In this document: piece after piece, positions 3,434 to 53,723 of the stretch | Layout of the letters: every line of letters starts with the position of its first letter | Numbering within the stretch: position 1 is the first letter of the stretch | Origin: Chloroflexota bacterium | GTDB taxonomy: Bacteria; Chloroflexota; UBA11872 | Direction of reading: 5' to 3' | Assembly: GCA_022820025.1 (NCBI GenBank) | Contig: JAJEGF010000025.1 | Location: 209,522 to 273,521, forward strand | DNA length: 64,000 nt | Made by a program: the position numbers and the translations under genes | Notes under the pieces: generated by a model | Seen by the model: the letters and a program-made list of their open reading frames with translations, nothing else | Databases searched by the model: none | What the model was told of the DNA's origin: nothing

Positions 3434-4038
3434 CGAGCGGGCCAGCCGGTGATGTAGGGCAACCGGTCGTGGACGGCGCTGATGGCATCGTCGGACTCCA
3501 GCAGCGACGAGAGAGCGTCCCACTCGCCGCTGACAAAGGCCTCGCGGACGGAGGCCGGCAGCTCGGCCTGGTAGGTGGCCTGCCCGGCCGTGATCGTTCC
3601 GCTGCCAACGTCGATTTCCAGCGCCGTCTCGGGCGCCTCCTCGATCAGGCTTTGCAGCGACTCGATCTGGGTGGCGGGAAGGGTCAGGCAGGGAATGCCG
3701 ATGGTGGTGCAGTTGCCGAAGAAGATCTCGGCGAAGCTCTCGCCGACGATGGCCTTGATGCCTCCACGCATCAGGGCCTGCGGGGCGTGTTCGCGGCTGG
3801 AGCCCGAACCGAAGTTTCGGTTGACGACCAGGACGCTCGCACCCTCAAACCGCGCGTCGTCGAACGGGTGCTTGCCGTTGAGTTGCTTGCGGTCGTCTTC
3901 GAACGCGTGCGGTCCCAGCGTCTCGAACGTGATCTCGCGCAGATAGCGGGCCGGGATGATGCGGTCGGTGTCGATGTCGTTGCCGCGCACCGGCACGCCG
4001 GTTCCGGCGACGTGGGTAATGCGTCCGTCGTCACTCAT
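3430..4038 (-). CDS. leuD: 3-isopropylmalate dehydratase, small subunit
   Basis: Small (swivel-domain) subunit of isopropylmalate isomerase, which works with LeuC to convert 2- to 3-isopropylmalate through a 4Fe-4S aconitase-type reaction. The 202 residues include GNDIDTDRIIPARYL near the N-terminus and the active-site loop FGSGSSREHAPQAL, both diagnostic. GAGG-type ribosome binding bases precede the ATG. It lies 12 bases after leuC and overlaps leuB by four bases, so the two are translationally coupled. Confidence 0.95.
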   Translation of the reverse strand: MSDDGRITHVAGTGVPVRGNDIDTDRIIPARYLREITFETLGPHAFEDDRKQLNGKHPFDDARFEGASVLVVNRNFGSGSSREHAPQALMRGGIKAIVGESFAEIFFGNCTTIGIPCLTLPATQIESLQSLIEEAPETALEIDVGSGTITAGQATYQAELPASVREAFVSGEWDALSSLLESDDAISAVHDRLPYITGWPAR

Positions 4039-8225: not shown

Positions 8226-8709
8226 CGCGAGCGATGGCGATCACGCCGGTTCGGGAAATCTCCTCGATCGGGTACTCGGTAATCACGTCCAGGAACCGGT
8301 CGATCTTGGACTGCGCGCCGGTCATCTGCACGATCATCGACGACTTGCTCACGTCCACGATTTCGCCGCGGAAGATGTCGGTGATCTCGGCCAGACCGGG
8401 ACGCTCGGTGGCTTTCACGCGCACCTTGATCATGGCCAATTCACGCGTAACCGCCGGCGCGCCGGTCAGATTCCGCACGGAGACGACCTCGACCAGCTTA
8501 TAGAGCTGCTTCTCGCACTGTTTGACTTCCTCCGCCGAGCCTTCGACGGCAATCGTCATGCGCGAGTAGCCGGGCTCCTCGGAATGCCCGACGGCCAGGC
8601 TGGCGATGTTGAAGCCGCGCCGGCGAAACAGGCTGGCCACGCGGGTCAGGACACCAGGATGGTCGGCCACCGTGGCGACCAGCGTATGGGTTTCAGGCGC
8701 CCCGTTCAT
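8188..8709 (-). CDS. ilvN: acetolactate synthase, small regulatory subunit
   Basis: Regulatory partner of IlvB that carries valine feedback inhibition. It is 173 residues long. The N-terminal ACT domain (about residues 7-80) contains [20 protein letters not shown] and the Asn-Ile-Ala-Ser-Leu segment that forms the effector site; a second ACT-like half follows from about residue 85 ([18 protein letters not shown]). Its ATG overlaps the ilvB stop by four bases (ATGA), giving tight translational coupling and a matched subunit ratio. Confidence 0.95.
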
Positions 8710-10436
8710 CGCGGGTCTTCGATCACGCTGTTCACGCCGGTGCCCGGCACGATCATCGGGTAGACGTTCTCCACGCGGTCCACGTGCAGGTCCAGCACCA
8801 CCGGGCCGTCGTATTCGTGGGCCATGGCGATGGCGTCGTGCATCTCATCGCGCGAGCTGGTGCCCACGCCGTGCAGCCCGAAGGCCTGGGCGACCTTGGC
8901 GAAGTCGGGATTGTCCAGGAAGGCGCCCATGTAGCGGCCTTCGTAGAAGAACTCCTGCCACTGGCGGATCATGCCCAGGTGCGCGTTGTTGAGCACGGCG
9001 ACCTTTACGTTGATGCCCTCGGCGGCCAGCGTGTTGAACTCCTGGATGTTGATCAGCAGGCCGCCGTCGCCGGTGACGCACCAGACGTCCTGCGACTCGT
9101 CAGCCAGCTTGACGCCCATGGCGGCCGGAAGGGCGTAGCCCATCGGCCCCAGGCCGCCGGCGCTGAAGAACATGCGCGGGCGCTCGTACCAGAAGTGCTG
9201 CGATGCCCACATCTGGTTCTGGCCCACGTCGGCGATTACGCGCGCCTCGCCGCCGGAAATGTCGTAGATCGCTCGCACGACTTCCTGCGGCAGCACCGAG
9301 TCGGGGCTGTCGGGAATCTTCAGCGACGGATGGTCGCGCCGCCAGCCGTTCATCTGGTCCAGCCAGGGCGTGCGATCGCGCGATTCGATCAACGGCAACA
9401 GCTTCTGCAGGGTGAGCTTCAGGTCGCCGACGATCGGCACGTCGGTCTCCAGGACCTTGCCGATCTCGGCCGGATCAATGTCGATGTGCACGACCTTGGC
9501 GCCCGGTCCGAATTCGTCCTCCTTGCCCACGGCCCGGTCGTCGAAGCGGGTGCCGAGGCCGATGATGCAGTCGGTCTGGCGCATGGAGAAGTTCGCGTAG
9601 GCCAGGCCGTGCATGCCGAGCATCCCGAAGGAGAGCGGATGGGTCTCGGGGAAGGTGCCCACCCCATGCAGCGTGCTGACGACCGGGATGCTGCCGCGCG
9701 TGGCGAGCTGCATTAGCTCGTCGGCGGCACCGGATATGTCGATGCCGTGTCCGGCCATGATGATCGGGCGCTCGGCGGCGTTAATGACCTCGGCGGCCTT
9801 GCGGACCATCCGGGCGTTGCCGACCTTGGACGGCCGGTAGCCGCGCAGGTTCACCTGGTCGGGCGCGGTCTCGGTGGTGGTTTCCAGGAAGACGTCCTTG
9901 GGAATGTCGACGTGGACCGGGCCCGGGCGGCCGGTGGAGGCCAGGTGGAAGGCTTCCGACATCACGCGCGGCAGGTCGTCCACGTCCATCACCAGGTAGC
10001 TGTGCTTGGTGATCGGAATGGAGATTCCGGTGACGTCGGCTTCCTGGAAGGCGTCCGAGCCGATGGCCGGACGGGCCACCTGGCCGGTGATGTAGACCAC
10101 GCCCACCGAGTCCATGATGTCGTTGGCCATGCACGTGACCATGTTGGTGGCGCCCGGCCCCGATGTGCTGGTGGCCACGCCGACCTTGCCGGTGGCACGC
10201 GCGTAGCCGTTGGCGGCGAAGCCGGCGGCCTGCTCGTGGCGGATCAGCACGTGCCGGATGCGGTCCTGGTAGTGGTAGAGGGAGTCGTAGAACGGCAGCG
10301 AGGCGCCGCCCGGCATCCCAAAGATGACGTCGACGCCTGCGGCGAGCATGGCATCGCACACCACCTCGCCGCCGGTACGCGGCGTCTTGGGCGTGGCGGT
10401 GGAACCGTTGGTGGATTGGCCGTTGATCGCGGACAT
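8706..10436 (-). CDS. ilvB: acetolactate synthase, large catalytic subunit
   Basis: TPP- and FAD-dependent enzyme that makes acetolactate from two pyruvates, or acetohydroxybutyrate from pyruvate and 2-oxobutyrate. It is 576 residues long and complete. The TPP-activating glutamate is E68 in VLIRHEQAAGFAANGYARA. The Mg/TPP motif GDGGLLINIQEFNTLAAEG ends in the NN of AVLNNAHLGMIRQWQ, and GLGPMGYALPAAMG is also present. GGAG sits nine bases before the ATG. It is the first gene downstream of a T-box leader, so the whole ilv-leu-cimA run is probably switched by uncharged tRNA. Confidence 0.96.
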   Translation of the reverse strand: MSAINGQSTNGSTATPKTPRTGGEVVCDAMLAAGVDVIFGMPGGASLPFYDSLYHYQDRIRHVLIRHEQAAGFAANGYARATGKVGVATSTSGPGATNMVTCMANDIMDSVGVVYITGQVARPAIGSDAFQEADVTGISIPITKHSYLVMDVDDLPRVMSEAFHLASTGRPGPVHVDIPKDVFLETTTETAPDQVNLRGYRPSKVGNARMVRKAAEVINAAERPIIMAGHGIDISGAADELMQLATRGSIPVVSTLHGVGTFPETHPLSFGMLGMHGLAYANFSMRQTDCIIGLGTRFDDRAVGKEDEFGPGAKVVHIDIDPAEIGKVLETDVPIVGDLKLTLQKLLPLIESRDRTPWLDQMNGWRRDHPSLKIPDSPDSVLPQEVVRAIYDISGGEARVIADVGQNQMWASQHFWYERPRMFFSAGGLGPMGYALPAAMGVKLADESQDVWCVTGDGGLLINIQEFNTLAAEGINVKVAVLNNAHLGMIRQWQEFFYEGRYMGAFLDNPDFAKVAQAFGLHGVGTSSRDEMHDAIAMAHEYDGPVVLDLHVDRVENVYPMIVPGTGVNSVIEDPR

Positions 10437-10621: not shown

Positions 10622-10862
10622 GCAACAAAAAACCCGTCCCTCACAGGGACGGGCTGTAACCCGCGGTACCACCCCGCTTGCCCGGCCGGACGACCGAACC
10701 GCTTCGTTACCCGATCACGGCGGGCACCGGACCGGCCTAGCAGGGAAACCCTTCAACCGGTCGGCTCGGGGGCGACCTTCGGCCTTGAGAACCCGCCGGC
10801 TCACACCATCTCCGGCTCGCTCGGGGTTCTCGGGAGGCCTACTCCTCCCCGTCAACACCTTT
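10622..10862 (-). promoter_or_regulatory. T-box riboswitch leader of the ilv-leu-cimA operon
   Basis: The minus strand carries the canonical T-box sequence GGGTGGTACCGCGGG (10661-10675), followed by an intrinsic terminator. Upstream are the stem I elements GGGGAGGAGTAGG, GAGCGAGCCGG with GGTGTGAGCCGG, and the specifier-loop 3' strand AAGGTCGCCCCCGAGCC. Aligned with the ileS T-box of this window (AACATCCTTCCCGAGCC), the specifier triplet falls on GTC, a valine codon. The leader would let uncharged tRNA-Val open transcription of ilvB onward. The T-box call is secure; the specifier identity is inferred from the alignment. About 185 bases with no gene separate the terminator from ilvB. Confidence 0.9.
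10626..10653 (-). terminator. T-box intrinsic terminator of the ilvB leader
   Basis: On the minus strand CCCGTCCC-TGTGA-GGGACGGG is followed directly by TTTTTT. The competing antiterminator would use the T-box bases just upstream, so this hairpin forms when charged tRNA is bound. Confidence 0.9.
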
Positions 10863-11026
10863 GCGTCGTGTGCATTGTGACTCGGAACCGCGACAGGCAC
10901 GATCAGCCAAGCACGCAATGCGCACAGCGCAACCGTAACAACGCCCAGCGCCAGCGGCAAGGGAATTCGGAAGTGGGTCGTGTTGAGTTGCGGAGCAGCT
11001 TGCGCCACGGTCCAAATCGAGCTGGC

Positions 11027-31698: not shown

Positions 31699-32784
31699 TC
31701 AACTCCCGGCATAGGCCGCCGCCAACACCTCCGCCACCTCCGGACGCGTGAACTCGGCCGGCGGTCGCTGCCCTTCGCTCAGCATCCCCCGCAGCCGCGT
31801 GCCGCTCAGGAACACGTGGTTGGCGCCGTCGTGCGGGCAGGTCTTGGCCGAGCCCATCGCGGCGCAGGCCGTGCACCAGAAGGCGTGCTCGAAGAACAGC
31901 GGCGTGATGCCCAGTTCACCGGCATCGAACTCGTGGAAGATGTGCTGCGCGTCGTGCGGACCGTAGTAGTCGCCCACGCCCGCGTGGTCGCGTCCCACGA
32001 TGAAGTGCGTACAGCCGTAATTGCGCCGCACCACTGCGTGAAACACCGCCTCGCGCGGGCCCGCGTAGCGCATCGCCGCCGGCAGCGCCGCCAGCACCAC
32101 CCGGTCGCGCGGAAAGTAGCCGTCCAGCAGCACCTCGTAGCAGCGCCAGCGCACCTCCGCCGGCACGTCGTCCTCCTTGGTCACGCCCACCAGCGGATGC
32201 ACCAGCAGCCCGTCCACTATCTCCAGCGCGGCCTTCTGGATGTACTCGTGCGCGCGGTGGATCGGGTTGCGGGTCTGGAACCCGACGACCGTCCGCCACC
32301 CCAGCGCGTCGAACCGCTCGCGCAACTGCGACGGCGTCAGGTGCCGCGGGTCGTCCGCCCGCTCCGGCGATTCCCCGAAGCACCGCACCGGCCCGCCCAG
32401 CAGCACCTCGCCCTGCGCATAGAGCGCGGCCACACCGGGATGCTCGGCGTCGGTCGTTCGGTATACGGCTTGCGCCTCCGCCGTCTTGTCGTAGTGGAAG
32501 CGCTGCTGGACTTCCAACTCGCCACGACGGCTCCCGGCCCCGTCCAGCAAATCCAGCCGGTCCCCCTCGCGCACCAGCGCCGCCGTCTCGGCATCAACCG
32601 CCAGCGTAATCGGCAGCGGCCAGGGCTGCCCGTCCGGCAGGTGCATGTCCTTCAGCACCGCCTTGTATTCGGCCTCCGTCATGAAGCCGGTCAGCGGGCG
32701 GTAGCCGCCGACCCGAAACAGCTCCAGGTCCGCCAGTTGCCGCGGCGTGAGCTCGATCGCCGCGGGCGCTGCCACGGCGCCCAT
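31699..32784 (-). CDS. sat: sulfate adenylyltransferase
   Basis: ATP sulfurylase: ATP plus sulfate gives adenosine 5'-phosphosulfate (APS). The 361 residues show the PUA-like N-terminal part (GGYRPLTGFM), the nucleotide-binding QTRNPIHRAHEYIQ (QxRNPxHxxH) and the GRDHAGVGDYYGPHDAQ loop. A Cys cluster, FWCTACAAMGSAKTCPH, fits the zinc-containing homo-oligomeric type. The ATG shares one base with the cysC stop (TGATG), so I took 32784 over the longer frame to 32832. The homo-oligomeric Sat is unlike the CysDN enzyme of enterobacteria. Confidence 0.95.
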   Translation of the reverse strand: MGAVAAPAAIELTPRQLADLELFRVGGYRPLTGFMTEAEYKAVLKDMHLPDGQPWPLPITLAVDAETAALVREGDRLDLLDGAGSRRGELEVQQRFHYDKTAEAQAVYRTTDAEHPGVAALYAQGEVLLGGPVRCFGESPERADDPRHLTPSQLRERFDALGWRTVVGFQTRNPIHRAHEYIQKAALEIVDGLLVHPLVGVTKEDDVPAEVRWRCYEVLLDGYFPRDRVVLAALPAAMRYAGPREAVFHAVVRRNYGCTHFIVGRDHAGVGDYYGPHDAQHIFHEFDAGELGITPLFFEHAFWCTACAAMGSAKTCPHDGANHVFLSGTRLRGMLSEGQRPPAEFTRPEVAEVLAAAYAGS

Positions 32785-33386
32785 CAGGCCGCCGCCACGC
32801 AGTCGGATACCGGCGCCAGGTAGCCCAGGCATTCCAGCCTGGAGATGATCTTGGCCGCGCTCTCCTCAACCGATTCCATGTCCGTCTCCACCACGATCTC
32901 CGGACTCACCGGTTCCTCGTACGGATCGCTGACCCCGGTGAAGTTCTCGATCTCGCCCGCCAGCGCCTTTGCGTACAGCCCCTTGGGGTCGCGTTCGATC
33001 AACTGATCGAGCGAACACTTCACGTAGACCTCCACGAACTCGCCGATCTGATCGCGCGCTTCGCGGCGTCCTTCGTTGTAGGGGGAAATCGCCGACACCA
33101 GCATCGTCGCTCCGTGCCGCGTCCCCAGCGCCGCCACCCAGGCAATTCGCCGGATGTTCTCGTCGCGGTCCTCGCGCGTGAACCCCAGCCCCTTGCTCAG
33201 GTGCGTGCGCACCACGTCGCCGTCCAGCGACTCCACGCGGTGTCCGCGGCGTTGCAGTTCCGGCGTCAGCCGCTCCGCCAGCGTGGTCTTGCCCGCCCCG
33301 GAAAGTCCCGTCAGCCAGATCGTGACCCCGACCGGTTCCTGCCGCCCGTAGGCGGCAAACCCATTGCAGTCCATTGACTTGACCAT
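32784..33386 (-). CDS. cysC: adenylyl-sulfate kinase
   Basis: Phosphorylates APS to PAPS. The 200 residues carry the P-loop [18 protein letters not shown], the APS site [21 protein letters not shown], the conserved [10 protein letters not shown] and the lid segment [20 protein letters not shown]. The chosen ATG ([10 protein letters not shown]) lies two bases after the cysH stop; the frame stays open to 34136 but only because of the overlapping cysH gene. Since the CysH here looks APS-specific, PAPS may serve mainly sulfotransferases, or the kinase may be a side branch. Confidence 0.94.
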
Positions 33387-33388
33387 CC

Positions 33389-34102
33389 CTAGGTGTTTCC
33401 GTGCAGACCGCACTCGGTCTTTGACAGTCCGCGCCAGCGGCCGCTGCGCAGGGACTCTCCGGGCAGCGGACGCGACGTGCAGCGCGTGTCGCAACCCAGG
33501 CTTGGGTAGCCCTCGTCGTGCAGACGGTTGTAGGGCACGTCGTGGTGGCGGATGTAGTCCCAGATCTCGGCTTCGGTCCAGCCGCTCAGCGGCGCGACCT
33601 TCACCAGCCCGAACTTCGCGTTCCACTCGATCACCGGCGTCGCCGCCCGCTGCGCCGACTGGTCGCGCCGCACACCCGTGATCCAGGCGCGCTTGTCCGC
33701 CAGCGCCCGCGCGTTTGGCCCGACCTTGCGGATCCCGCAGCAGGTATCCGGGTCTCGATCCCACAGCGACGCGCCATGGAGCGCGGCCTGGTCCGCAAGC
33801 GACAACTCCGAGTGATATGCCGTGGCCTCGAACCCGTACTGCGCTTCGATCCGCTCGCGGACCTCGTGTGTGGCCTCGAAGAGCAGGCCGGTGTCCAGGT
33901 AATAGACCTCCACATCGTCCAGCAAGTCCAGCCGCGCCAGCATGTCCACCAGCACCATTCCGCTGGGACCGCCGAACGAACACGACAGCGCCACGTCCGG
34001 CGCATAGGCGCGCACGACTTCGCGCAGCACCTCCTCGGCGGGCAGGCCCTGCAGCCGCGGTCCTTCGCGCCGCAGGTCGATTTCGGCAAGTTGCACGTTC
34101 AC
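33389..34102 (-). CDS. cysH: adenylyl-sulfate (APS) reductase, CysH family
   Basis: Reduces APS (or PAPS) to sulfite. It is 237 residues, with a GTG start. The PP-loop reads [19 protein letters not shown]. The iron-sulfur type is shown by the Cys pair in [13 protein letters not shown] and a second Cys pair in [13 protein letters not shown], plus the redox-active tail KTECGLH. That four-Cys set marks the 4Fe-4S APS-reducing subgroup. The second pair is spaced Cys-x3-Cys where Cys-x2-Cys is usual. GGAGG lies 13 bases before the GTG and can be hidden by a G-run just upstream. The gene is preceded by a cysteine-rich short ORF and a structured leader, suggesting regulation by cysteine supply. Confidence 0.92.
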
Positions 34103-34106
34103 GATT

Positions 34107-34239
34107 GAGAGAAAACCTCCGGGGGCACAGGGGCAAAAAACGCCCCCTCGCTTGAATTCAGGTGCTCGACGCCGTTCTAGGGCGTAGTCAGTGGAGACTG
34201 ATCACGCGGCCGGGGCGCAAACGCCCGGCCGGCGTCGAG
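34107..34239 (-). promoter_or_regulatory. structured leader of cysH with a possible ribosome-site lock
   Basis: On the minus strand, CTCGACGCC (34239-34231) pairs perfectly with GGCGTCGAG (34173-34165) and encloses two hairpins: GGCCGGGCG-TTTG-CGCCCCGGCC (one bulge), and a stem with CAGT-CTCC-ACTG at its tip. This makes a three-way junction. Downstream, GGGGGC (34147-34142) can pair with GCCCC (34134-34130) or with GCCCCC (34126-34121), which touches the GGAGG ribosome site of cysH (34120-34116). It starts about 40 bases after the stop of the polycysteine ORF. A ribosome stalled upstream could change which pairing forms. No match to a known riboswitch class was recognised. Confidence 0.45.
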
Positions 34240-34279
34240 AAGTGCCTGGCATGGCCAGGACTTTGCGGGCGTGAGAGGC

Positions 34280-34441
34280 CTAGACCACCACGCCCCGTAT
34301 ACAGGCGCAGGTGCAGTCGCAACAACAACACGTGCAGCCGCTGGGGTGCTCGCGTGAAGCGATAGCCGCCGACGCAAGCAGCCGCTGGCCGCTCGGCGTC
34401 GGCGCGGGATCGGACGTTTTGTCGGGGGTCAGACCGCGCAT
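34280..34441 (-). CDS. polycysteine short ORF (putative cysteine-responsive leader peptide)
   Basis: A 53-codon ORF whose ATG lies in the last codons of the sulfite reductase gene, overlapping its stop (ATGcgcggtcTGA), and which ends at TAG 34280-34282. It starts MRGLTPDKTSDPAP and carries the run CTCCCCDCTCAC: eight Cys in twelve codons, four of them TGT, three of those consecutive. It ends IRGVVV. It is followed by a structured leader and cysH. In mycobacteria, polycysteine leaderless short ORFs are known cysteine-responsive attenuators of sulfur genes; by analogy, slow decoding when Cys-tRNA is short could expose cysH. Here it is translationally coupled to sir, not leaderless. No homologue could be checked. 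Confidence 0.7.
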   Translation of the reverse strand: MRGLTPDKTSDPAPTPSGQRLLASAAIASREHPSGCTCCCCDCTCACIRGVVV

Positions 34442-36210
34442 TCGCCCTCGCCGCGTTCCAGCACATACAGCCGGTCGCGGTCCCAGTCCACGAAGTGGTC
34501 CGGTTCGTCGTCGTATTCGGGCGGCAGCGCCAGGTCCTTCAACAGTCCGTCGAAATACAGCCGGTCGTGCCGGTCAACGTACTCGTTGAACGACTCGTCG
34601 TCCGCCAGGCGGCTTTCCTCGTAGTCCAGGATCAAGCGCTCCACCACCGTCGGCGCACGCTTGGCCGGCACCCGCGTCCGCAGTAGCAGGCCCAACCGCA
34701 TCGGCGACCCGTAGCGGCGGTTGCCGCCGATGAAGGTGTGGTAGGCCGGCACCTGCCGCCCGCCGGTCTTGATGGCCGCGCCGTGGAAGCCGATGTTCCC
34801 CACGTGGTGCATGCCGCACGAGTTCGGGCAGCCGCTCATGTTGATCAGGATCTGCCGCGTCAGCGGATCCTGGATGTGCATTTCCTCGACCTTGGCCTGG
34901 ATGGCCTTGTTGAGACCCATTGACGACGTGATCCCCAGCTTGCAGCTGTCCGTACCGGGGCAGGACACCACGTCGTTGATCTCGTAGGCGCCCGGATTGC
35001 CCAGACCCAGCGCCCGCAATTCCTTCCAGACGGGGTAGACGCTGTTGTCCGGAATCCAGCGCAGCACGATGTTCTGCCAGTGCGTGGTTCGCGCCCGGCT
35101 GGCGCCGTAGTCACGCAGGATCTGCGCCAGGCCGCGGAATTGTTCGGGACTCAGGTCGCCCTGGTTCACCTTGACTTCCATCGTCGAGTACCCGGCCTGC
35201 ACCTGCGGCGCCACGTTCGTGGAGCAGAAGCGCTCGAACAGGTCGGCGTCCTCTTCCAGGATTACCGGCGCCTCGGCCGGCATCTCGGGAGCTTCCGCCT
35301 CTTCGTTGTCGATGAAGACCAGGTCGTCCAGGTCGTAGTCGCGCTGCGCCCAGGCGCCGGTCAACTCGGCCTCGACCATCTCGCGGAAGCGCTCAATCCC
35401 GACCCGATGCACCAGGAACTTGATGCGGGCCTTGGCGCGGTTGCGGCGCAGTTCGTCGGACCGGTTGAAGATTCGCAGCACCGCCTCGGACACCCGCAGG
35501 TAGTCGCTCAGGGGCACGAAGTCGTACAACTCGAACGCGTGCTTGGGCATGATTGACAGCCCGCCGCCGGTCAGCATCCGGAACCCGCGCTCTTCCTTGC
35601 CGTCCACTTCGCGGATGGTCGAGAAGAACGCCAAGTCGTGAATCTCGCCGATCGTGCGGTCGGTGTCCGATCCGCTGAACGAAACCTTGAACTTCCGGGG
35701 CAGCAACTGGGTCAGCGGGTTACGCACGAAGTAGCGCACGAAGGCCCCCGCGTACGGCGTCGCGTCGAACGTCTCGTCGTCCGCCACGCCCGCCCAGGGA
35801 TCCCCGGTCACGTTGCGCACCGTGTTGCCGCAGGCTTCCCGCGTCGACAGCCCGGCGCGACCCAGCACCCGCAGCGCGTCCCAGGCCAGTGGCAGCGGGA
35901 TGTGGTGCAACTGGATGTTCTCGCGCGTGGTGATGTGACCCTTCTTCAGCGGGGCGAACCGCTCGGCCACCTCGGCAAAGGCATCCAACTGGTCCGCCGT
36001 GACGCCGCCCATCGGCAGCTTCACCCGCAGCATCTGCACGTTCGGCTGGCGCTGGCCGTAGACGCCCTGCTTCAGCCGGTAGCCGATGAACTTCTCTTCG
36101 ACGCGCTGACCGGCCAGGTAGGCCCGGGCCTCCGTGGTGAAATCCTCGAACTCCTCGTCGAGGATCTCGATCACGTGCCCAGCCGTGTCTCTGCGTTCAG
36201 TTACTGCCAT
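34429..36210 (-). CDS. siroheme-dependent sulfite (or nitrite) reductase
   Basis: A 593-residue ferredoxin-type reductase taking sulfite to sulfide in six electrons. It has the two-fold repeat of the family: substrate-binding Arg/Lys in LKKGHITTRENIQLHHIP, GNTVRNVTGDPWAG, and the 4Fe-4S-siroheme ligands in VVSCPGTDSCKLGI (Cys-x5-Cys) and MSGCPNSCGMHH (Cys-x3-Cys). Sequence alone does not separate SirA from NirA, but cysH-cysC-sat downstream and siroheme genes in the same run favour sulfite. It is the first gene of the cluster; its 3' end overlaps the start of the polycysteine ORF. The 112 bases upstream hold its presumed promoter. Confidence 0.92.
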   Translation of the reverse strand: MAVTERRDTAGHVIEILDEEFEDFTTEARAYLAGQRVEEKFIGYRLKQGVYGQRQPNVQMLRVKLPMGGVTADQLDAFAEVAERFAPLKKGHITTRENIQLHHIPLPLAWDALRVLGRAGLSTREACGNTVRNVTGDPWAGVADDETFDATPYAGAFVRYFVRNPLTQLLPRKFKVSFSGSDTDRTIGEIHDLAFFSTIREVDGKEERGFRMLTGGGLSIMPKHAFELYDFVPLSDYLRVSEAVLRIFNRSDELRRNRAKARIKFLVHRVGIERFREMVEAELTGAWAQRDYDLDDLVFIDNEEAEAPEMPAEAPVILEEDADLFERFCSTNVAPQVQAGYSTMEVKVNQGDLSPEQFRGLAQILRDYGASRARTTHWQNIVLRWIPDNSVYPVWKELRALGLGNPGAYEINDVVSCPGTDSCKLGITSSMGLNKAIQAKVEEMHIQDPLTRQILINMSGCPNSCGMHHVGNIGFHGAAIKTGGRQVPAYHTFIGGNRRYGSPMRLGLLLRTRVPAKRAPTVVERLILDYEESRLADDESFNEYVDRHDRLYFDGLLKDLALPPEYDDEPDHFVDWDRDRLYVLERGEGECAV

Positions 36211-52820: not shown

Positions 52821-53723
52821 CTACTCCCCCTTTGCGCCGGCGATATCGCGGCGCTGGAAGATCCAGAAGGACAGGCCGCTGAGGACCACGATGTAGGCCA
52901 GCGAGACGAGGAAGCCCTGCAGGGCTTCGGGTTGCATGGCGAGGACCGCGGCTTCGCCAAACGACTCGTCGCCGCCACCGGAAAAGAGCGCGCCGCCGGT
53001 GGTGCCCAGCCAGCCGCCGACCGCCTGGCCGAGGACGAAGCCGGATATCCGCTCGAACCAGTCGAAGTTGGTCAGGATGCTGAGCACGATGCCCTCGGCC
53101 ACGGCATAGCCGAGCGCCAGCCCGATAGCCGTGCCGGAGGACGTGGTAACGACGGCGAAGAACAGACCCAGCGCCACGTACGGCAGCAACCCAAAGATGG
53201 CCTTACCGAACGTGCGCCCCACCTCGACCCATTCCGCCGACTCGGCAAGCCAACTGCCGCCTTCCAATGTCAGCGAGGCGATGAAGCTGCTCAGCGCCAT
53301 GCTGAGGGCCCCGACGATCAGCGCGCCAACGCCCAGGAGGGCGACGAGCAGCAGCTTGGAGGCCAGCAATTGCCAGCGCCCGGCGCCGCGCGTCAGGACC
53401 GTGCGCACCGTGCCCCAGCCGTACTCGGTGCCGGTCAACGAGGCGGCCAGGATCATGATGAGGATGATGCTGAACCCGTGCGAGATCGCGAGCCCGATCA
53501 CCGCGTTGTTTGGAAAGGCCAGGAGTCCCAGGAAGTCTCCGCTGACGCTGGCGGTGCCGCCGTCGCCCAGCGTCACCTCGTCGCCGACGCGGAACAAGGC
53601 ATAGGCGCTCCAGAACGTGATTTGCAACAGCAGCACGCTGACGAACAGCAGAATCCAGGGCATGCGCCGGCGGCGCAGCTTGAACCACTCCCAGCGGGTG
53701 AGGGACAGGGTTTCAGCAATCAT
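52821..53723 (-). CDS. ABC-2 type transporter permease (second of a pair)
   Basis: A 300-residue membrane protein with about six hydrophobic segments, starting LTRWEWFKLRRRRMPWILLF (cytosolic basic coupling helix then TM1). FSIILIMILAASLTGTEYGW, then GTVRTVLTRGAGRW is the conserved ABC-2 loop. It is closely related to the next gene upstream (same length, LTRLEWYKLRHRRMPWILL), so the exporter may use a heterodimeric channel. It is the last gene of an ATPase-permease-permease operon; the substrate is unknown. The ATG at 53723 begins the conserved part. Confidence 0.85.
   Translation of the reverse strand: MIAETLSLTRWEWFKLRRRRMPWILLFVSVLLLQITFWSAYALFRVGDEVTLGDGGTASVSGDFLGLLAFPNNAVIGLAISHGFSIILIMILAASLTGTEYGWGTVRTVLTRGAGRWQLLASKLLLVALLGVGALIVGALSMALSSFIASLTLEGGSWLAESAEWVEVGRTFGKAIFGLLPYVALGLFFAVVTTSSGTAIGLALGYAVAEGIVLSILTNFDWFERISGFVLGQAVGGWLGTTGGALFSGGGDESFGEAAVLAMQPEALQGFLVSLAYIVVLSGLSFWIFQRRDIAGAKGE

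Follow-up and report, generated by a model that had tools for sequence, protein, structure and literature searches.

The operon and its polycysteine short ORF

The window, that is, the whole 64,000-nucleotide stretch of Chloroflexota contig JAJEGF010000025.1 analysed here, contains an operon in which sir, a polycysteine short ORF, cysH, cysC and sat all lie on the minus strand (Table 1), the genes 3' of the short ORF being assigned to sulfate assimilation by their Pfam domains. The order sir-cysH-cysC-sat was found in all 12 relatives checked, and cysH, cysC and sat are located downstream of the short ORF in each of the 11 genomes that carry it (by Pfam in the window, by gene order in the ten relatives). 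The GTG at codon 1 of cysH is unchanged across the 10 sequences of our alignment A3. As listed, the end of cysC and the sat ORF overlap by 49 nt (window positions 32784-32832, minus strand), and the true start of sat may be further in.

Table 1. Positions of genes, sequence elements and predicted RNA folds at the sir-cysH locus, in window coordinates
Feature	Position	Strand	Basis or remark
sir, sulfite reductase, upstream gene of the operon	34429..36210	-	Pfam NIR_SIR and NIR_SIR_ferr
GAGGG, possible ribosome site for the short ORF, 3 nt 5' of its ATG	34445..34449	-	sequence
Polycysteine short ORF of 53 codons, with its ATG within the end of sir, ending SGCTCCCCDCTCACIRGVVV*	34280..34441	-	ORF list and sequence; in frame in 11/11 leader-bearing genomes
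12 codons with 8 cysteine codons (C36, C38-C41, C43, C45, C47)	34301..34336	-	sequence
51-nt block, from cysteine codon 43 to 15 nt past the short-ORF stop	34265..34315	-	no variation in 11/11 sequences
Hairpin 0 (segments 1:2), 10 bp, over the last two cysteine codons	34286..34313	-	-14.0 kcal/mol, z -2.85, 2/200 shuffles as good
Hairpin A (segments 2:3), spanning the short-ORF stop	34267..34295	-	-16.7 kcal/mol, z -3.21, 1/200 shuffles as good
GCCUCU, candidate anti-Shine-Dalgarno segment	34274..34279	-	pairs with the cysH Shine-Dalgarno in models, mainly with hairpin A blocked and little cysH coding sequence
Hairpin B (CCUGG..CCAGG)	34242..34261	-	5/5 core pairs invariant; z -2.28 for 34242-34262
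Three-way junction, 9-bp closing stem around two hairpins	34165..34239	-	MFE -45.0 kcal/mol, z -5.97, 0/200 shuffles as good
Hairpin 3 (GGGGC..GCCCC), just 5' of the cysH Shine-Dalgarno	34125..34151	-	z -3.47; 5 core pairs kept in 9/9 distinct sequences
GGAGG, Shine-Dalgarno of cysH, 13 nt before the GTG	34116..34120	-	sequence
cysH, PAPS/APS reductase, GTG start	33389..34102	-	Pfam PAPS_reduct
cysC, APS kinase, downstream in the operon	32784..33371	-	Pfam APS_kinase
sat, ATP sulfurylase, downstream in the operon	31699..32832	-	Pfam ATP-sulfurylase

The short ORF begins at an ATG (34441-34439) within the 3' end of sir, which stops at 34431-34429 (minus strand), and this overlap, together with the GAGGG just upstream, argues for coupling to sir. 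The GAGGG is identical in the 11 ORF-bearing genomes and altered in loci L015 and L016, and no sigma-70-type promoter was detected in window positions 33900-34700. In a scan for cysteine stretches, the cysteine run of the short ORF gave the highest count within the window; a six-cysteine stretch at 53662 (minus strand) was set aside as a polycysteine site, since it overlaps long ORFs on both strands. A genome-wide search with the pattern TGYTGYTGYTGYNNNTGY returned the short ORF as its single match, the reversed control pattern also returning one match. The short ORF had no Pfam or NCBIfam match.

An initial annotation, based on the letters of the window and a list of its ORFs, had placed a polycysteine ORF upstream of a folded RNA, and comparison among relatives indicates that this ORF is real and conserved: it stays open in every leader-bearing genome, with 6-8 cysteines per 12 codons, and its final 11 residues, CTCACIRGVVV, are common to all 11. 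Codon variation was compared among ten genomes (G005 was left out; nine for sir, because the L040 contig is short). Codons 6-35 had 13, 17 and 14 variable sites of 30 at positions 1, 2 and 3, a nearly equal variation suggesting that the peptide there is unselected, though the frame stays open; codons 36-54 had only 3, 2 and 2 variable sites of 19. Third codon positions were variable at 125 of 237 codons in cysH and at 88 of 201 in sir.

CysH was found in 60 of the 151 genomes searched, and a covariance model of the leader matched 11 of the 151, the window's own included, all from one Chloroflexota genus; outside this genus, the model (R1), whose strict filters can lose weak matches, detected no leader among the 151 genomes. 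When 28 sources were searched with a covariance model, two matches were strong, the window leader and L013, and three further rows had E values of 0.37-0.90. The leader is present in one copy per genome, before cysH. The closest named relatives by CysH are nine Chloroflexi/Chloroflexota metagenome bins (L034-L042, 87-97% identity). The two other members of the genus in the genome set, G001 and G002, with CysH identities of 69% and 65%, respectively, have the same operon order, and neither the polycysteine ORF nor the leader RNA is present in them. A scan of Chloroflexota loci for polycysteine stretches (31 loci, 160,755 bases, no gene filter; the second G075 place from the CysH search not among the loci) gave nine rows, of which one of the two in L153 was discarded as antisense within a gene that we take to be permease-like.

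Predicted folds of the leader RNA

The invariant 51-nt block covers the last three cysteine codons, the remainder of the short ORF and 15 nt beyond it, and its synonymous sites are also unchanged. Both hairpin 0 and hairpin A are predicted to fold inside this block, and they are mutually exclusive, having the strand GGGCGUGGUG in common. In folding models in which the first free base lay 33-54 nt before the stop, hairpin A had a probability of 0.41-1.0 and hairpin 0 of up to 0.49, the two being near-even at -42 in L034, L036 and L035. Closer to the stop, the modelled probability of hairpin A drops to 0.04-0.5 in several genomes before this hairpin is blocked, and in the shortest RNAs it is weak in L010 and L039 (0.03-0.35, edges -60 to -27).

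In enterobacterial attenuators of the trp and his type, a leader peptide holds the regulatory codons, the 1:2 and 2:3 hairpins overlap, and a 3:4 terminator with a U run is present. The Chloroflexota leader has in common with them the leader-peptide codons and, in its predicted folds, the exclusive 1:2 and 2:3 hairpins, but it lacks the 3:4 terminator hairpin and U run. Specifically, a trp-type intrinsic terminator (a GC-rich hairpin followed by a T run, between the leader ORF and cysH) was sought and rejected, with 0 terminator-like sites found in window positions 33900-34700; the T run of hairpin 3 sits in its loop and, judged by eye in A3, is not conserved among the relatives. In its geometry, the modelled overlap of hairpins 0 and A corresponds to a leader-peptide attenuator; its position is not within the stretch at 34107-34239 that the initial annotation had singled out. 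Judging from the coordinates, stalling at the start of the cysteine run would free segment 1 and so favour hairpin 0, which is the wrong direction for the simple model; the attenuator model calls for stalling at C40-C47, towards the end of the run, and not at C36.

Farther downstream, the 9-bp closing stem around two hairpins that the initial annotation had described was borne out by the folding of the window sequence (Table 1) and of five relatives, with z of -5.08, -4.80, -5.34, -4.95 and -3.94, respectively; the entire 133-nt stretch at 34107-34239 gave a folding z of -4.02. The remark that the leader belongs to no recognised riboswitch class also held, as no Rfam family reached its gathering score in the leader, either in the whole-window scan or in relatives L034 and L040. 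The T-box covariance model had no match at the leader. In the whole-window scan its only match was at 10642-10864 (minus strand, 98.5 bits), before a 576-codon ORF (10436..8706) that, from its sequence, presumably encodes the large subunit of acetolactate synthase.

The leader evolves slowly. Of the 122 post-stop leader columns 39-160 of A3, 28 were variable, less than half the rate at third codon positions of cysH. Over columns 20-195, variation was found in 12 of 96 paired versus 31 of 80 unpaired columns (p = 8e-5, with gaps counted as variation and shared descent ignored), and within the junction in 11 of 56 paired versus 11 of 19 unpaired columns (p = 0.003, shared descent again ignored). 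For the leader fold as a whole, 48 pairs in nine distinct sequences, 98.4% of the cells were paired. The initial annotation had proposed covariation as a check on the stems, and the outcome falls on neither side: two-sided changes were seen in 0 of the 48 pairs because the relatives are too alike, and a shuffled control did equally well, so that covariation neither supports nor refutes the fold.

One genome, G005 (L013/L041), was excluded from A3, and hence from the pair and variation tests, for its deletion, and was included in alignments A2 and A4. In this genome, about 73 nt are deleted between two GAAATCGA repeats, which removes the cysH ribosome site and start codon; from the preceding stop to the cysH codons, the reading frame holds no ATG, GTG or TTG. 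The deletion may be genuine or may stem from a faulty assembly.

Pairing at the cysH ribosome site

The initial annotation had suggested that the three-way junction could hide the cysH ribosome site, with a separate G-run able to pair with C-runs next to the GGAGG. In nine of ten genomes, the probability of the closing stem of the junction did not fall below 0.90 at any of the 14 modelled ribosome positions, and in the tenth, L037, it was at least 0.65; the junction thus stays folded wherever the modelled ribosome stands, suggesting that it is probably a scaffold and not a switch, and its role as a switch was rejected. Both the G-run and the C-run do exist in the window, but their pairing is improbable (model probability about 0.02) and the C-run is not conserved, the CCCCC beside the GGAGG being found only in the window, 1 of the 10 A3 sequences, whereas the nine relatives have CCAUC, CCAUU or CCACC; this switch was also rejected. 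The structure initially described is true, but the job given to it was probably wrong. What stands of the attenuator-like alternative folding is found elsewhere, in the exclusive hairpins of the invariant block and in the joint conservation of the ORF and the RNA. Another candidate, an ACCU adjoining the junction, pairs with AGGU in the isolated 133-nt fold, but only to 0.22 at most in longer RNAs, and was rejected as an anti-Shine-Dalgarno.

The remaining candidate is the GCCUCU segment. When the modelled ribosome edge stood 0 or +3 from the short-ORF stop, this segment paired with the GGAGG in all ten genomes; the probabilities were 0.81-0.99 in RNA that stopped 3 nt short of the cysH start codon and 0.34-0.97 in RNA that included this codon. 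With the edge at -15 or further upstream, the probability was at most 0.09, with the exception of L040 (0.63-0.67 with the shorter RNA), and at -6 it was already 0.01 to 0.87. The pairing weakened as coding sequence was added past the start codon, to at most 0.26 with 12 nt and 0.46 with 21 nt (both maxima in L040, the others at most 0.12) and at most 0.04 with 37 nt, and forcing it in RNAs with coding sequence costs approximately 2-11 kcal/mol relative to the best fold. A terminating ribosome should, from its footprint, have its edge at +6 to +12, and at these edges the probability of pairing is 0. Dinucleotide shuffles of the 20 nt past the stop paired with the Shine-Dalgarno equally well in 30, 27, 29 and 50 of 200 cases in four genomes; with 13-25% of shuffles matching it, the pairing is a possible output step that does not go beyond chance.

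When the RNA took in 36 nt counted from the cysH start, the Shine-Dalgarno was unpaired with a mean probability of 0.13-0.34 at every ribosome position, so that no clear switch was seen, and its main partner was the stretch behind it, CUCUC or coding sequence (0.46-0.79). The local hairpin at the Shine-Dalgarno is worth only -2.0 kcal/mol, versus -12.3 for its pairing with the 16S tail. The pyrimidine stretch between the cysH Shine-Dalgarno and the GTG (34103-34115, minus strand) can pair with the Shine-Dalgarno; in the alignment, the genus member L015 lacks 6 nt of it.

Taken with these data, the reading that we favour, by a little over even chances, is a ribosome-mediated cysteine attenuator inside the sir-cysH-cysC-sat operon, acting on cysH-cysC-sat. 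Ribosomes finishing sir would start again on the polycysteine ORF, whose ATG overlaps sir, and would stall in the cysteine run when Cys-tRNA is short or reach the stop when it is plentiful. The position of the ribosome would then choose between hairpin 0 and hairpin A through their common strand, and this choice would set the expression of cysH and the genes downstream, with initiation of translation as the likeliest step. Formation of hairpin A would sequester the GCCUCU and leave the cysH ribosome site free, and without hairpin A the GCCUCU could pair with the GGAGG. The junction, hairpin B and hairpin 3 may represent a permanently folded spacer joining the two ends. The sensor side of such an attenuator is well supported by conservation, and the output step proposed for the cysH ribosome site, as modelled, is weak.

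The same sensor might instead be read out by Rho, a version that we consider doubtful: ribosomes finishing the short ORF would leave the 177-nt leader untranslated, and Rho would stop transcription before cysH, with stalled ribosomes or hairpin A giving protection. Rho requires a long unstructured C-rich stretch. A C-rich stretch (CCTCTCACGCCCGC) does lie directly past the short-ORF stop, and the region at 33900-34700 contains no intrinsic terminator, but the leader is strongly structured and its structure is conserved. Rho has been proposed for the terminator-less cysteine leaders of mycobacteria in excerpts of Seliverstov 2005 (PMC1262725).

The junction and its neighbours might also be mainly an element of mRNA processing or stability that sets the levels of cysH-cysC-sat apart from those of sir, the ORF being a modulator or a separate device. 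The junction lies between two genes of one operon, remains folded in the modelled ribosome states and has paired columns less variable than its loops, as would be expected of such an element; we nevertheless regard this explanation as unlikely, as it accounts neither for the invariant block nor for the shared presence of ORF and RNA in all 11 genomes and their joint absence from the two other genus members of the set. That the leader is a riboswitch of an undescribed class, with an incidental cysteine-rich ORF, is quite improbable: a compact, conserved junction with no Rfam match, occurring once per genome before cysH, would suit a riboswitch, but a binding site would be expected to keep its unpaired bases, which in the junction vary more than the paired ones, and the best conserved piece is the end of the cysteine run. 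Chance folding of a GC-rich intergenic region with an accidental ORF and no regulatory role was already disfavoured and is very improbable, since, although two-sided covariation is absent and shared descent among such close relatives alone preserves much sequence, all six sequences fold with z between -3.9 and -6.0, the leader evolves slowly with less variable paired columns, and the block at the end of the ORF is invariant.

Polycysteine leaders in other bacteria

We scanned 90 loci (647,150 bases) for 12-codon stretches with at least five cysteines outside long ORFs and obtained 17 rows. Fourteen of these were Acidobacteriota-type loci (L046, L050, L052-L054, L056, L058-L062, L065, L067 and L068, with the element at approximately 85-860 in each), in which an ORF such as CMCACCCCACVCSGAGRLLT is located 13-115 nt before an ORF of 564-593 codons, and in all 14 the gene behind the polycysteine ORF is sir-like (tblastn, 30-33% identity to the Sir of the window). 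The Acidobacteriota ORF is followed by an 11-bp hairpin (98.1% of cells paired) and a T run, and a UCUGGCG strand inside the ORF can pair with the 5' arm of this terminator (95.9% of cells); two-sided covariation was seen in 1 of 11 pairs of the terminator and in 0 of 7 pairs of the antiterminator. The two leaders searched against Rfam, L050 and L053, had no match. From their sequences, these 14 loci have the anatomy of a textbook cysteine transcription attenuator.

In two further loci, L066 and, in a separate ORF analysis, L072 (approximately 3640-4010 in both), a different polycysteine ORF (CCCCCPEA...) lies directly before cysH, and the sequence behind it shows an inverted repeat rich in GC and then a T run; the fold of L072 forms the hairpin and that of L066 pairs a hairpin arm with the end of the ORF. 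Similarly, L079, from Phycisphaerae, has a short ORF, CACCRCSC, before cysH, followed by a hairpin and a T run (3640-3935). Either type of polycysteine leader is present in 16 of the 19 loci titled Acidobacteria, Acidobacteriaceae, Terriglobia, Terriglobales or Sulfotelmatobacter; neither type was found in L049, L070 and L071, and in L049 and L071 the locus extends only 1.7 and 2.6 kb, respectively, upstream of cysH. The remaining row of the scan is a minus-strand stretch of L068.

The Acidobacteriota and Chloroflexota leaders have in common a polycysteine ORF at the sir-cysH locus and a strand near the end of the ORF that is available for alternative pairing. In Acidobacteriota, however, the partner is the 11-bp terminator with its T run and the leader precedes sir, whereas the Chloroflexota leader has no terminator and is situated between sir and cysH.

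Polycysteine leader ORFs of mycobacteria are described as cysteine-responsive attenuators (Canestrari 2020, as cited in PMC9094748 and PMC13236596), and one of the citing papers, PMC13236596, refers to that work as translation attenuation. In excerpts of Seliverstov 2005 (PMC1262725), cysteine runs are reported upstream of cys genes in Mycobacterium and P. acnes and upstream of cbs in B. longum, and the mycobacterial leaders are without conserved terminator hairpins. The Chloroflexota ORF resembles the mycobacterial ones in being a short ORF of cysteine codons that, as proposed for them in the same citations, may attenuate downstream genes of cysteine biosynthesis; its cysteine-codon run lies near the stop, and it is located upstream of sulfur-assimilation genes. 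It differs from them in that the mycobacterial ORFs, from another phylum, are called leaderless in the title of Canestrari 2020 as cited in these two papers, whereas the Chloroflexota ORF starts inside the end of sir and is followed by a conserved structured leader with a junction. The leaders of Seliverstov 2005 (Mycobacterium, Propionibacterium acnes and Bifidobacterium longum) are, in its excerpts, from Actinobacteria only, and the Chloroflexota leader differs in its conserved exclusive hairpins and junction. No report of a polycysteine attenuator in Chloroflexota or Acidobacteriota was present among the literature matches listed. The Chloroflexota leader is thus best read as a different RNA behind the known type of polycysteine sensor of mycobacteria.

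Tentatively, the attenuator may be specified further, in a form that we think possible and hold with less confidence than the general one: a terminator-free device in mid-operon, in which sir ribosomes would be handed to the polycysteine ORF, the place they reach would decide between the two hairpins, the folded junction would bridge approximately 150 nt, and the post-stop segment would lock or free the cysH site. In this form, it may represent one of several independently wired polycysteine attenuators acting on sulfur assimilation, in Chloroflexota, Acidobacteriota, a Phycisphaerae genome and Actinobacteria.

Cysteine sensing by a run of cysteine codons had been reported in mycobacteria and predicted in a few other Actinobacteria, according to the excerpts and citations above. 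The occurrence of such a sensor in Chloroflexota, where a different RNA follows it, and, ahead of plain terminators, in Acidobacteriota and one Phycisphaerae genome suggests that several bacterial groups employ it with different outputs. In the Chloroflexota genus, the ORF and the folded RNA probably let the cell tune its cysteine production to its cysteine supply, and an attenuator placed in the middle of the operon could separate the expression of sulfite reductase from that of the genes supplying it.
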